Positions 23,940 through 36,584 of a DNA stretch of 43,391 nucleotides are shown in pieces. A program made the translations under genes and the position numbers. The notes under the pieces are model-generated. The model did no database searches, was not told where the DNA came from, and worked only from the letters and a program-made list of their open reading frames with translations. Numbering within the stretch: the stretch's first letter is position 1; every line of letters begins with the position of its first letter. This stretch comes from Coriobacteriia bacterium (lineage in GTDB: Bacteria > Actinomycetota > Coriobacteriia > Anaerosomatales > SLCP01), in assembly GCA_030603745.1 (NCBI GenBank), contig JAUVXE010000007.1, forward strand, positions 1-43,391, written 5' to 3'.

Positions 23940-24617
23940 TCACGCCGCGAGGCCGAGGACCCACCCTTTGAGGACCGCGCTCAGCCACAGCTCGAGCAGT
24001 GTGAGCACGAAGGCGATCAGGAGCGGCGTCCCGAGATCGCCGACGGACCGGGCCCGGCGCTCGAACGGCGGCAACAGCGAGACGATCACGAGGTTGACCA
24101 CGATGAAGGTGAACAGGATGGAGCCGGCCACCACGACCGGGTAGAGCGCACCGGCAAGCGGCGCGAGCCACCAGATGGCGGCGAAGGCGAGCGGCAACGA
24201 CACCACGAACGCGGCGAACCGCGAGGGGCTCCCGAGAACCCTGTCACGCCCCGCCTCGGCCCACAGTTCCATGTTGAGGACCGGGAGCAACCAGGCGGAG
24301 ATCGCGTACCCGGTCAGCAGGCCGGTCACGAGCCGGATAGCGTTGGTGGTCGGCCGTATGCCTGCGTACGAGGTCACCCCGTCGAAGACCATCGCCGCAA
24401 CCCCCAGGGCGAGCAGGACACTCACCACGGCCGGGGGCATCCGCGTGGGCCGGTCCCGGTGGGTCCACTGCAGCACGAGGAACGCGATCATGAAGCCGAG
24501 GTAGATCCCCGTGTCGCGCGCGCACACCGGCAGCTGGACCGAGGCGCCGAAGAACGACCGCTCGGGGAGCTGGTGACACAGGCCGTAACCCACCGCATCG
24601 AGCAGCGACTCAAGCAC
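23940..24617 (-). CDS. DUF2085-like integral membrane protein
   Basis: A 225-residue membrane protein with about five or six transmembrane helices. The N-terminal GYGLCHQLPERSFFGASVQLPVCARDTGIYLGF is the DUF2085 signature, where conserved Cys, His and Arg-Asp residues surround the first helix. Function of the family is unknown; the Cys/His pattern suggests a metal or redox role. The GTG start has AGGAGG four bases upstream. A terminator for tRNA-Pro lies immediately ahead of it. Confidence 0.82.
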   Translation of the reverse strand: MLESLLDAVGYGLCHQLPERSFFGASVQLPVCARDTGIYLGFMIAFLVLQWTHRDRPTRMPPAVVSVLLALGVAAMVFDGVTSYAGIRPTTNAIRLVTGLLTGYAISAWLLPVLNMELWAEAGRDRVLGSPSRFAAFVVSLPLAFAAIWWLAPLAGALYPVVVAGSILFTFIVVNLVIVSLLPPFERRARSVGDLGTPLLIAFVLTLLELWLSAVLKGWVLGLAA

Positions 24618-24680: not shown

Positions 24681-24757
24681 TGGTCGGGATGGCGGGATTC
24701 GAACCCACGACCTCTGCGTCCCGAACGCAGCGCTCTACCAAGCTGAGCCACATCCCG
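24681..24757 (-). tRNA. tRNA-Pro (CGG)
   Basis: The minus strand starts CGGGATGTGGCTCAG and ends CATCCCG-A-CCA with a fully paired acceptor stem. The anticodon stem CTGCG/CGCAG encloses TTCGGGA, anticodon CGG. It is 77 nt with encoded CCA. Confidence 0.95.
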
Positions 24758-24899: not shown

Positions 24900-26969
24900 C
24901 TACCGGCGGCTCAGCCCGACGTGGCACTGCGCACACTCGGTGGGCTCGTGGCACGAGAAGCACGGCTGGGCGCCGGTCTGGCGCACGATCGCCGGGTGCT
25001 CGAGCGTCCACGGGCGGGCACCGGTGGCGCCCTCGTGGTGGCAGTTGTCGCAGAAGAGCTGGACGTGGCAGTTCGTGCAGACCGGCTTGGTCAGGCTGCC
25101 ATCCTGGAATCCGGTGGCATGCGTGTCCTTGAAGTCGGCCGGGTGCGGGATCTCGATGCGGTGGCAGTCGACACAGAACTGTGCCTGCAGGCCACCCTCT
25201 CCGTGGCAGTACGCGCAGTTCTCAGGCTTCTCGTTGAAGGCCTGCGGGTGCGCGGCCGGGGTGTCGAGCGCCGGACGGCGGACGAAGTCCGCGGCCTGGT
25301 GCGACGTCGGCACCACGGTGAGGCTGTTGTGGCAGTCCACGCAGAACTCGCGGTTATGGCACTTGTCGAAGCAACCCTCGCCGCCGATGTCGTTGACCAC
25401 GTTGGCGTGGACCCTCAGCCACGGCTGACCGTCGATCGCGCCCTCGTGGTGGCAGTCGCTACACAGCTCGACGAAGGTGTGGCAGTTGGAGCACACGTCC
25501 GGATCCTGACGACCCGTCGCGGCGTGGAACTCCTTGAAGTCCTGCGGGTGGGGCATCTCCAGCACGTGGCAGCCCTGGCAGAACGTGGAGTTCGCACCGC
25601 CGTCGCCGTGACAGACCTCACACGCGGTGATCTCGGTCTTGGCGGACTCGGCGTGCACGCCGATCTCAGCGGCAGGCTTCCTGAGCCAGTCAGCGGCCTG
25701 GTGCGAGGTCGGGATCGGGTTCAGCGCCGTGTGGCACTCCTGGCAGTAGGAGATCTCGTGGCATGCCTCGAGGCAGCCCGGCACGCCGTTCGTGCGAACG
25801 GCCGCGGCGTGCTGCTCCTGCTCCCAGGCGACGTCGGTCTGGAACTCCCAGTTCGACGCGGTGCCGTGGTGGCAGCTGTCGCAGAAGTACGGGTCGACCG
25901 AGGTGTGGCACATCTCGCACTTCTCGGCCTGGGTCGCGACGAGTTCCGGATGGGTCTTGGTGCGGAACTCGGTCGGGTGCGGCATCTCCATGCCATGGCA
26001 GTCCATGCAGAACTGCGACTCGATGTGGCACGTCGAGCAGTATCCGACGGCAGCAGGGGCCGGGAGGTGCTCGATGCGCTGGTACATCGGCGCATCGTCG
26101 GCAAGCTCCCCGCCATCCGCAGCGTACGCGGAAGCGACGCCGAGCGCCGACTCCTCGGTGCCCTCGTCCTCCGCCGCCTCGTCCTCGGCGGCCTCTCCTG
26201 AACCGGTCGCCGCAGCCTTGGCCTCGATGTCCTCAAGGGCCATGTCGGCGTGACCGCGCGGATAGAAGTCCGCGACGAGGTGGTTGGAGGGCTTGAGCTC
26301 GAAATCGGGCGTGTGGCACGCCGAACACGCGCCCGGTGCGGGGATGCCGCCCGGGGACTCGTCGGTCAGCGTGTGGCACCGGAAGCAGGCCGTCATGAGC
26401 ATGAAGTCGTCATGCTTCTGGTTCGGCTCGCCGGTGTTGGGGTCGGTCAGCGTGAGGTCGAAGTCCTCCTTGTGACCGACACGGTTGTGACAGACCGTGC
26501 ACCAGATCTCCGCCTCGGAGTGCACATCGTGATCGATCAGGATGCCGGGACTCGGCGTGATCACGCGGTTCTCCAGGTTGTGGCACTGGGTGCACTGCTT
26601 CTCCGGGAAGTACTTCTTGCTGAGAGCGAGGTGCGAGCCGGGGTTGAGCGGCAGATGGAATTTGTTCGTTGCCGTCAGGTAGAGCTCGCCGAGCGCCTCG
26701 GCCTTCTTGAGTACGAACCCGATCGGAGTGATGCCCACGGGCACATGGCACGCCATGCACGAGACCTGGGAGTGCGTGGACCTGTCATAGGCGATGATGG
26801 AGTCGTCCTGGACCTTATGGCAGACCTCCGCGCAGAACCAGTAAGTCGATGTCACCCCCAATGCTGTGACGACGAACGCGGCCAGCACCAGGACCACCAC
26901 ACCGGTCCAGATGATGTACCGCGGTCGACGGACCGGATCCTTGAATCCGGCCAGCGATACTTTCGCCAT
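24900..26969 (-). CDS. Membrane-anchored 24-heme cytochrome c
   Basis: A 689-residue electron carrier. One transmembrane anchor (about 19-41) is followed by an N-terminal part resembling NapC/NrfH quinol dehydrogenases with six heme motifs (46-219), an acidic Ala/Glu/Asp linker (about 245-295), then three related units of six heme motifs each (about 311-449, 450-584, 585-685). In total 21 CxxCH and three CxxxCH (CAEVCH, CLEACH, CFDKCH) give 24 candidate hemes. Each later unit repeats signatures such as EMPHP/EIPHP, CxxCHH and PTSHQAAD. It probably takes electrons from menaquinol to the cell exterior or a terminal reductase (inference). The second ATG (26967-26969) has the better-spaced GGAG. 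Confidence 0.93.
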   Translation of the reverse strand: MAKVSLAGFKDPVRRPRYIIWTGVVVLVLAAFVVTALGVTSTYWFCAEVCHKVQDDSIIAYDRSTHSQVSCMACHVPVGITPIGFVLKKAEALGELYLTATNKFHLPLNPGSHLALSKKYFPEKQCTQCHNLENRVITPSPGILIDHDVHSEAEIWCTVCHNRVGHKEDFDLTLTDPNTGEPNQKHDDFMLMTACFRCHTLTDESPGGIPAPGACSACHTPDFELKPSNHLVADFYPRGHADMALEDIEAKAAATGSGEAAEDEAAEDEGTEESALGVASAYAADGGELADDAPMYQRIEHLPAPAAVGYCSTCHIESQFCMDCHGMEMPHPTEFRTKTHPELVATQAEKCEMCHTSVDPYFCDSCHHGTASNWEFQTDVAWEQEQHAAAVRTNGVPGCLEACHEISYCQECHTALNPIPTSHQAADWLRKPAAEIGVHAESAKTEITACEVCHGDGGANSTFCQGCHVLEMPHPQDFKEFHAATGRQDPDVCSNCHTFVELCSDCHHEGAIDGQPWLRVHANVVNDIGGEGCFDKCHNREFCVDCHNSLTVVPTSHQAADFVRRPALDTPAAHPQAFNEKPENCAYCHGEGGLQAQFCVDCHRIEIPHPADFKDTHATGFQDGSLTKPVCTNCHVQLFCDNCHHEGATGARPWTLEHPAIVRQTGAQPCFSCHEPTECAQCHVGLSRR

Positions 26970-27162: not shown

Positions 27163-27627
27163 CTAGCCCCGGAGCCGAAGCACGAGCGACACCTCGACGG
27201 GGGCCCCCTTGGGCAGCGCGGCCACGCCCACTGCCTCCCGCGCGTGGCGCCCCGCGTCGCCGAACGCCGCGAGCAGCACGGCGCTCGCCCCGTCGACCAC
27301 CGATGGCTGATCCACGAACGTGTCCGCCGAGGCGACGTATCCCGTCAGCCTCACGGCGGCGGCGACCTCGTCGAGCGCGCAGACGGTCGCGGCGGCCGCG
27401 AGCGCGTTGAGCGCGCACGCGCGGGCACACTCACGCGCGATGTCGAGCGACACCTCGCCGCCCACGGTCCCGCTCGTGATGAGCCGTCCGCCGACGAGCG
27501 GCAGCTGGCCGGCCGTGAACACGAGTTCGCCGGCGCGCGTCGCCGGGAGATAGTCGCCGAGCGCGACCGGCGGGTCCGGCAGCGAGAGGCCGGCCTCGGC
27601 GAGCCGCCGGGCCACCCCGCCCGTCAC
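27163..27627 (-). CDS. RidA/YjgF-family protein
   Basis: A 154-residue member of the YjgF/YER057c/UK114 superfamily. It starts [24 protein letters not shown] and contains [24 protein letters not shown] and [18 protein letters not shown], typical of the longer RidA-like subfamily. True RidA deaminates reactive enamine intermediates using a conserved Arg near the C-terminus; that Arg is not obvious here (PKGAPVEV), so another activity is possible. The GTG start overlaps the chemoreceptor stop in a GTGA, so both are co-translated. Confidence 0.85.
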
Positions 27628-35480: not shown

Positions 35481-36584
35481 TCAGTAGATGCCGCTCTCGG
35501 CCGCCCGCTGCGGGTCGACGCCGAGCTGGCGGACCTTGATCTTGAAGTCGTGCGCGTTCGCCGCCATGGCGATCGCGTCGTCGAGGGTGATCTGTCGGTC
35601 CTGGTAGAGGCGCAGCAGGCTCTGATCGAACGTCTGCATGCCGTAGTACTCGCCCTCTTCCATGGCATCCCGGATCAGGTAGGTCTTGTCGGGATCGTTG
35701 ATGTACTCGCGGATCGTCCCCGTCATGACCATGACCTCGACCGCCGGGACGAGCCCCCCGTTGATCGACGGGATGAGCCGAAGGCTCACGATGCCCTTGA
35801 GCGTCGAGGAGAGCATCAGCCTGATCTGCTTCTGCTGGTAGGGCGGGAAGAAGTCGATGATGCGGCTGATCGTCTCGGTCGCGTCGATCGTGTGGAGCGT
35901 CGAGAAGACGAGGTTGCCGATCTCGGCGGCGGTGAGTGCGGCGGAGACCGTCTCGTGGTCCCGCATCTCGCCGATGAGGATCACGTCCGGGTCCTGTCGC
36001 ACCACGTGCCGGAGCGCATCGGCATAGCTCTCGGTGTCGATGCCGATCTCGCGCTGGTTCACGATGCACTTCTGGTCGGCGTGCAGGACCTCGATCGGGT
36101 CCTCGACCGTGACGATGTGGCCCTCGCGCGTCGCGTTGATGTGATCGATCATCGCCGCCAGGGTGGTCGTCTTGCCGGATCCCGCGGTCCCGGTGACCAG
36201 CACCAGCCCGCGGGGCTCATCGGCGAGCCGACGCACGACCGGCGGTAGGCCCAGTTGCTCGATGGACGCCCGGTCGGTCGCCACCCGGCGCAGCGTCATT
36301 CCCACGCTGCCACGCTGGTGGAAGACGTTGACCCGGAAGCGCCCGACACCCGAGAGGGAGTAGGCGAAGTCGATCTCGCGGTGGTTCTCGAACGAGGCCC
36401 GCTGGCGCTCGTCCATCATCCCGAGCGCGAGGACCTTCGTCTGCTCGGCGGTCAACGGCTGTAGTTCGCGCAAGACCACGAGCTTGGCGTTGAGCCGGAT
36501 CGCAGGAGGGCTCCCGACCTTCACGTGCAGGTCGGAGCTCCCCTTCTCGGTCATCAGCTTGAGCAGGCCGTCGATCTCTGCCAT
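35481..36584 (-). CDS. pilT: Type IV pilus retraction ATPase PilT
   Basis: A 367-residue hexameric ATPase that powers pilus retraction. The N-terminal PAS-like domain starts IDGLLKLMTEKGSSDLHVKVG. Walker A is GTAGSGKTT, slightly unlike the common GPTGSGKST. The Asp box holds VTVEDPIE, Walker B is VILIGEMRD and the His box STLHTIDA. The C-terminal AIRAG-like region is present as a variant. The ATG (36582-36584) follows GTGAGG. No other pilus genes are nearby; the chemotaxis operon 4 kb upstream might steer pilus-based motility (inference). Confidence 0.93.
   Translation of the reverse strand: MAEIDGLLKLMTEKGSSDLHVKVGSPPAIRLNAKLVVLRELQPLTAEQTKVLALGMMDERQRASFENHREIDFAYSLSGVGRFRVNVFHQRGSVGMTLRRVATDRASIEQLGLPPVVRRLADEPRGLVLVTGTAGSGKTTTLAAMIDHINATREGHIVTVEDPIEVLHADQKCIVNQREIGIDTESYADALRHVVRQDPDVILIGEMRDHETVSAALTAAEIGNLVFSTLHTIDATETISRIIDFFPPYQQKQIRLMLSSTLKGIVSLRLIPSINGGLVPAVEVMVMTGTIREYINDPDKTYLIRDAMEEGEYYGMQTFDQSLLRLYQDRQITLDDAIAMAANAHDFKIKVRQLGVDPQRAAESGIY

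Follow-up and report, generated by a model that had tools for sequence, protein, structure and literature searches.

The gene at positions 24900–26969 on the minus strand of the window, which here denotes the whole 43,391-nucleotide stretch of DNA analysed, encodes a 24-heme cytochrome of 689 residues counted from the start MAK. The open reading frame gives 691 residues if read from 26975, and the conserved start MAK was placed at 26969 by ortholog alignment. Translation revealed 21 CXXCH and three CX3CH motifs, 24 in total, with 48 of the 48 cysteines lying inside heme motifs and none outside. The motifs are arranged as 6+6+6+6, hemes 1–6 forming an N-terminal head and hemes 7–12, 13–18 and 19–24 forming three tail units termed U1, U2 and U3; this arrangement and the start at 26969, both put forward in an earlier note on this DNA, were confirmed by the motif count and the ortholog alignment. 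Exactly 24 motifs with near-fixed intra-unit spacing recur in 39 Anaerosomatales genomes, which excludes chance. Comparison of the whole protein with solved structures by phmmer gave no match, family profile searches matched no catalytic-domain family, and a promoter and terminator scan around the gene yielded no useful result. The mean pLDDT of AlphaFold2 models was 41 for the full protein with 12 orthologs and 60 for one hexaheme unit with 35 sequences, values too low for claims on fold or heme distances.

Statements at the genome level are based on family searches and fetched stretches of genome. The order was sampled with 69 Anaerosomatales genomes (Coriobacteriia lineage OPB41), the present one being 2.14 Mb in size. 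Complete copies with exactly 24 motifs were found in 39 of the 69, including the present genome, and are spread over 14 of the order's 16 families; two further genomes have 23 regular motifs plus a single position with a lengthened spacer. One metagenome-assembled genome (MAG), G003, encodes an 18-heme ortholog of 6+6+6 architecture (L107, 278–2113), the last unit of which looks as if U2 and U3 had been fused in frame. In G019, a tandem frame with 18 hemes (L105) was rejected: its tail is identical to that of the next gene at 389 of 389 positions and it runs into an N gap, so it was taken as a scaffolding duplicate. The 24-heme proteins of L094 and L097 show longer C-to-CH spacings, possibly unusual heme motifs, in their last unit. 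Among 396 genomes sampled across the phylum, matches at E 1e-60 appeared in four, all from Anaerosomatales, and no 24-heme gene was found in the other actinobacteria of that sample. Public contigs encoding relatives are labelled mostly Coriobacteriia or Anaerosomatales.

The locus is syntenic across relatives, with chemoreceptor and RidA-like genes before the 24-heme gene and a DUF2085 protein after it. In the window, these neighbours on the minus strand are a RidA/YjgF-like protein (27163–27627, PF14588), which lies upstream in several relatives, and a DUF2085 membrane protein (23940–24617, PF09858), the conserved downstream neighbour, neither having a known link to the cytochrome; a tRNA-Pro(CGG) gene (24681–24757, minus strand) is interposed on the downstream side here. 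The 24-heme gene is single and stands outside any cytochrome cluster, so its neighbours name no partner, which weighs against the reading proposed below.

The head (26244–26969, minus strand) is NrfH-like over hemes 1–4 and cytochrome c7-like over hemes 4–6. Contig C10 of the same genome encodes a 12-heme sister, in which a head ~84% identical to that of the 24-heme protein is followed by one hexaheme unit. A hydrophobic stretch at approximately residues 18–40 (26850–26918, minus strand) aligns with the membrane helix of NrfH and is expected to be an uncleaved membrane anchor. In the genome scan, the 24-heme protein exceeded the cut-off of PF03264 (50.5 bits versus 24.1); this family was missing from the hmmscan output for the full protein, though it was listed for the 12-heme sister, whose head scored 54 bits against a cut-off of 24. 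The top solved-structure match of the head profile was NrfH of Desulfovibrio vulgaris (2J7A, E 2.2e-5), and together with the PF03264 score it bears out the NapC/NrfH-like anchored head described in the earlier note. The NrfH equivalog TIGR03153 matched the head with an E value of 5e-10 and 39.5 bits, under its curated cut-off of 134.2 bits, and PF14522 (cytochrome c7) matched residues 146–221, over hemes 4–6.

The heme-1 motif (26817–26834, minus strand) is CX3CH followed by K-V. All aligned orthologs and the 12-heme sister carry CX3CH-(K/S)-V at heme 1, and the NapC/NrfH signature CXXCHxM is absent, leaving the quinol site without signature support, which counts against the preferred reading. 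NrfH possesses K82 and D89, which we take to be the lysine and acidic residue of its quinol site. In the profile alignment to 2J7A, in which gap placement is uncertain, the invariant Lys 89 of the present head (26703–26705, minus strand) lies two columns off NrfH Lys 82, and no conserved acidic residue occupies the position of NrfH D89 in the aligned heads. A more distant 12-heme paralog in the same genome carries CGSCHEM at heme 1, suggesting that the 24/12-heme family probably arose from a canonical NapC/NrfH-like head and that such a head was probably ancestral to the CX3CH heads. Besides the sister, contig C3 (L056, 12144–13484 and 18387–19721) encodes two 12-heme paralogs with a head plus one unit, one of them with a canonical NapC-type CXXCHxM heme 1. 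When motif residues were fixed and the rest shuffled, the head compared with any unit gave z values of -0.4 to -0.6, ruling out that the head is a fourth copy of the hexaheme unit.

Head and tail are joined by a stretch at 26052–26243 (minus strand), delimited by the heme 6 to heme 7 distance and by its composition. It is acidic in the present protein, as had been noted before, and spans 66–140 residues among orthologs, consistent with a loop or flexible linker. The tail itself consists, on the minus strand, of U1 (hemes 7–12, 25719–26051), a linker containing His 423 and His 439 with conservation of 1.0 and 0.97 (25635–25718), U2 (hemes 13–18, 25317–25634), a second linker with the invariant His 557 and His 574 (25230–25316), and the C-terminal U3 (hemes 19–24, 24909–25229). 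U1, U2 and U3 are mutually homologous beyond the motif residues: with the motifs fixed and the rest shuffled, their pairs gave z values of 6.7–11.1, and none of 2000 shuffles scored as high. The proposal in the earlier note of three homologous units made by internal duplication agrees with these scores and with the unit trees described below.

Of the histidines outside the motifs, 23 are conserved at 0.97–1.0 among 31 aligned 24-heme proteins and 11 at 0.95–1.0 among 22 aligned 12-heme proteins; the two extra units of the 24-heme protein add exactly 12 motif histidines and 12 other histidines. The conserved non-motif histidines thus number one fewer than the hemes (23/24 and 11/12), leaving one heme without a conserved distal histidine. 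The C-terminal unit holds four conserved non-motif histidines of its own in both 24- and 12-heme proteins, the linkers preceding U2 and U3 hold two each, and the head holds two after heme 6. On the simplest reading, each unit would take two histidine ligands from the preceding segment, which would lock the units together, and His 423 and His 439 are perhaps the distal ligands for the following unit. On the same reading, the heme lacking a distal histidine would most likely be heme 1 of the head. M190 and M192 are invariant in the head, and one of them could be the ligand of the odd heme in place of an open heme, a point against the preferred reading. As judged from sequence, the histidine pattern agrees better with a wire in which one heme is open and possibly faces quinol than with a reductase. 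In the 12-heme sisters of L045 (6001–7086), L125 (G007) and L046, a CX5CH-like CYRAEGCH replaces the CXXCH of others and is a possible unusual heme motif.

The 12-heme sister occupies a different setting. On C10 the gene order is a 15-heme gene encoding a doubled-CXXCH cytochrome, the 12-heme sister, a B12/radical-SAM protein, MenG/UbiE two genes after the sister, and an amidohydrolase related to aminofutalosine deaminases, and the 15-heme/12-heme gene pair is conserved in relatives. Positions 36001–56000 of C10 in the present genome, G000 (L055), hold an EET-like cluster with ResB, CcsA and a 43-heme protein of ~1800 residues. The cytochrome c maturation system to which the earlier note had tied its proposal is thus present, ResB and CcsA both being found near the 12-heme paralog. 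Three giant multiheme proteins of this genome, with 21, 9 and 43 motifs (L061, 8898–12851; L055, 1–1977 and 5032–10470), resemble one another at the C-terminus, in a stretch with WP at its end that may be a surface-anchoring domain.

MqnA and MqnC were detected over curated cut-offs and a UbiA-type prenyltransferase is also encoded, which together with MenG/UbiE gives the genome genes of the futalosine menaquinone route. According to PMC9686372, respiratory quinones were 'not detected' in either of the family's two cultured members, which counts against the preferred reading. This result for cultured Anaerosomatales stands in contrast to the futalosine genes observed here (G000, C11 79089–82103, C10 and C14), and the chemotaxonomic quinone result may deserve re-measurement.

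The history of the gene differs between tail and head. In the unit trees, U1 (100/98), U2 (99/97) and U3 (98/93) each fall on one side of a branch, indicating one old triplication of the tail unit that preceded the diversification of the order and has been retained since; the single unit of the 12-heme protein (V) was not rejected as one clade either (p-AU 0.138). The tails show no mixing between 24- and 12-heme genes. In the head tree, by comparison, a 24-heme head often groups with the 12-heme head from its own genome, 10 label changes are needed, 8 of them forced by supported branches, and forcing the 24-heme heads into one clade was rejected (p-AU 9e-7). In two MAGs, the contigs of the 24- and 12-heme genes both terminate in an identical run of 99 bases within the head, which is what merging of an assembly graph at an identical sequence should produce. 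These patterns point to a mixing of the two heads through repeated gene conversion, which would have kept them alike. Parallel adaptation of both heads to a shared membrane, quinone or partner is an unlikely account of the head pattern, though a competing one for part of the signal. It draws on the synonymous sites of paired heads, which in most genomes lie close to what codon usage would predict, meaning that most exchanges are old and that in many genomes they may be absent; against it stand the forced label changes and rejected topology, the at least 99 identical bases shared in two genomes with third positions included, and the tails, which lack such mixing. Dating the exchanges by synonymous sites was abandoned as uninformative, the sites being near saturation. 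No report of gene conversion of multiheme cytochromes was found in the open-licence literature, the coverage of which is incomplete.

Taken together, we favour, with a probability of about 0.6, a reading in which the protein is a membrane-anchored, quinol-oxidising cytochrome with a lengthened output arm: menaquinol is oxidised at the head and electrons pass via the head and the 18-heme tail in the direction of the cell wall. The NrfH-like head, with its N-terminal helix, would be placed at the outside of the cytoplasmic membrane, where electrons from menaquinol would enter at the single heme without a distal histidine, cross the bis-His hemes of the head and then the 18 bis-His hemes of the three tandem units, and move outward toward other multiheme cytochromes and the wall. 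In this scheme the tail arose when one hexaheme unit was duplicated ahead of the order's diversification, and the 12-heme sister probably feeds a different, dedicated cytochrome cluster. Within this scheme we infer the oxidation of quinol, the identity of the open heme, the sharing of ligands between units, the continuity of the chain, the direction of transfer and the acceptor. The extracellular electron transfer hinted at in the earlier note fits a multiheme-rich actinobacterial lineage in which one cultured case reduces Fe(III) (PMC9686372).

Two other functions were weighed. The 24-heme protein might instead be a membrane electron store, a capacitor that would buffer electrons from quinol during a shortage of acceptors; a single chain with 24 hemes and a solitary gene without a dedicated acceptor would suit such a role, but the unit order, spacing and histidine pattern fixed over the order suggest a defined path and the 12-heme sister sits in a cytochrome cluster, and although storage is compatible with both observations, we regard it as quite unlikely. 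A terminal reductase, in which the open heme would be catalytic for a soluble acceptor such as sulfur compounds or metal oxyanions and be fed by the other hemes, is very unlikely even with one heme lacking a conserved distal histidine and one cultured relative that reduces sulfur and thiosulfate and not Fe(III) (PMC9686372), because no catalytic-domain family was matched, the odd heme belongs to a protein with a head alignable to NrfH, a quinol dehydrogenase, and the 12-heme sister shows the same odd count; the 'unusual reductase' of the earlier note lost ground likewise, since a conserved distal-His candidate exists for every heme except one.

Current models for the passage of electrons through a thick Gram-positive wall invoke several separate cytochromes. 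Under the wire-like reading, a 24-heme chain that is fixed across the order and bears a probable quinol-oxidising head would let one protein, open to expression and measurement, cover part of that distance. A stronger form is doubtful, though worth stating: one polypeptide would lead from the quinol pool across much of the Gram-positive wall, its 18-heme arm locked by shared histidines with no separate carriers for that stretch, and the cell would maintain two arm lengths on one head under continual homogenisation by gene conversion. With their common head, the 12- and 24-heme proteins provide a ready-made series of lengths, and one open heme in each member is the sharp prediction of the histidine count. 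Two features should interest specialists, namely the strictness of the 24/23 and 12/11 counts and the exchange of heads limited to that domain, which, if true, is an unusual case of concerted evolution confined to one domain of a respiratory protein.

Wire-like multiheme proteins made by tandem duplication of a small module are known from the GSU1996-type dodecaheme cytochromes of Geobacter, which are soluble periplasmic proteins of triheme c7 repeats without a quinol-oxidising membrane head. The 24-heme protein shares with them the tandem-duplicated module and differs in its membrane head and hexaheme units. Its likeness to NrfH, NapC and CymA lies in the N-terminal helix and first four hemes, which align with NrfH (2J7A), and possibly in the invariant lysine near NrfH Lys 82; the differences are CX3CHxV in place of CXXCHxM, two extra head hemes and the 18-heme tail.

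A comparable Gram-positive system is ImdcA of Thermincola (Tfer_0070/TherJR_1117), a membrane-bound inner-membrane decaheme cytochrome for which EPR suggests one high-spin heme, the potentials of which suit menaquinol, and which was proposed to oxidise the quinol pool and hand electrons to other cytochromes (PMC7911101). Both are membrane-anchored multiheme proteins of Gram-positive bacteria with proposed quinol oxidation and possibly one odd heme, whereas ImdcA has 10 hemes instead of 24 and no triplicated hexaheme tail was reported for it. A membrane anchor, a multiheme ectodomain and ResB/CcsA were likewise found here, the Gram-positive wall being taken from cultured relatives: PMC9686372 describes OPB41 isolates with a Gram-positive wall and 17–18 multihemes each, one of them an obligate Fe(III) reducer. 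For a wall of 20–80 nm, the number of six-heme proteins needed end to end has been put at 4 to 16 (PMC7911101), and four hexaheme groups in one chain correspond to the low end if extended, a comparison rather than a measurement.

PMC9686372 also describes 'quinol oxidizing' multihemes of Anaerosomatales clustered with cytochrome biogenesis genes and Rex, an arrangement resembling the cluster of the 12-heme sister. They are homologs of putative quinol-oxidising multihemes of Carboxydothermus ferrireducens (PMC7829351, PMC9686372); the genes in these papers are clustered, unlike the solitary 24-heme gene, and the main text searched does not mention a 24-heme protein. The kind already known is the inner-membrane quinol-oxidising multiheme cytochrome, and the 24-heme form is a variant of it.
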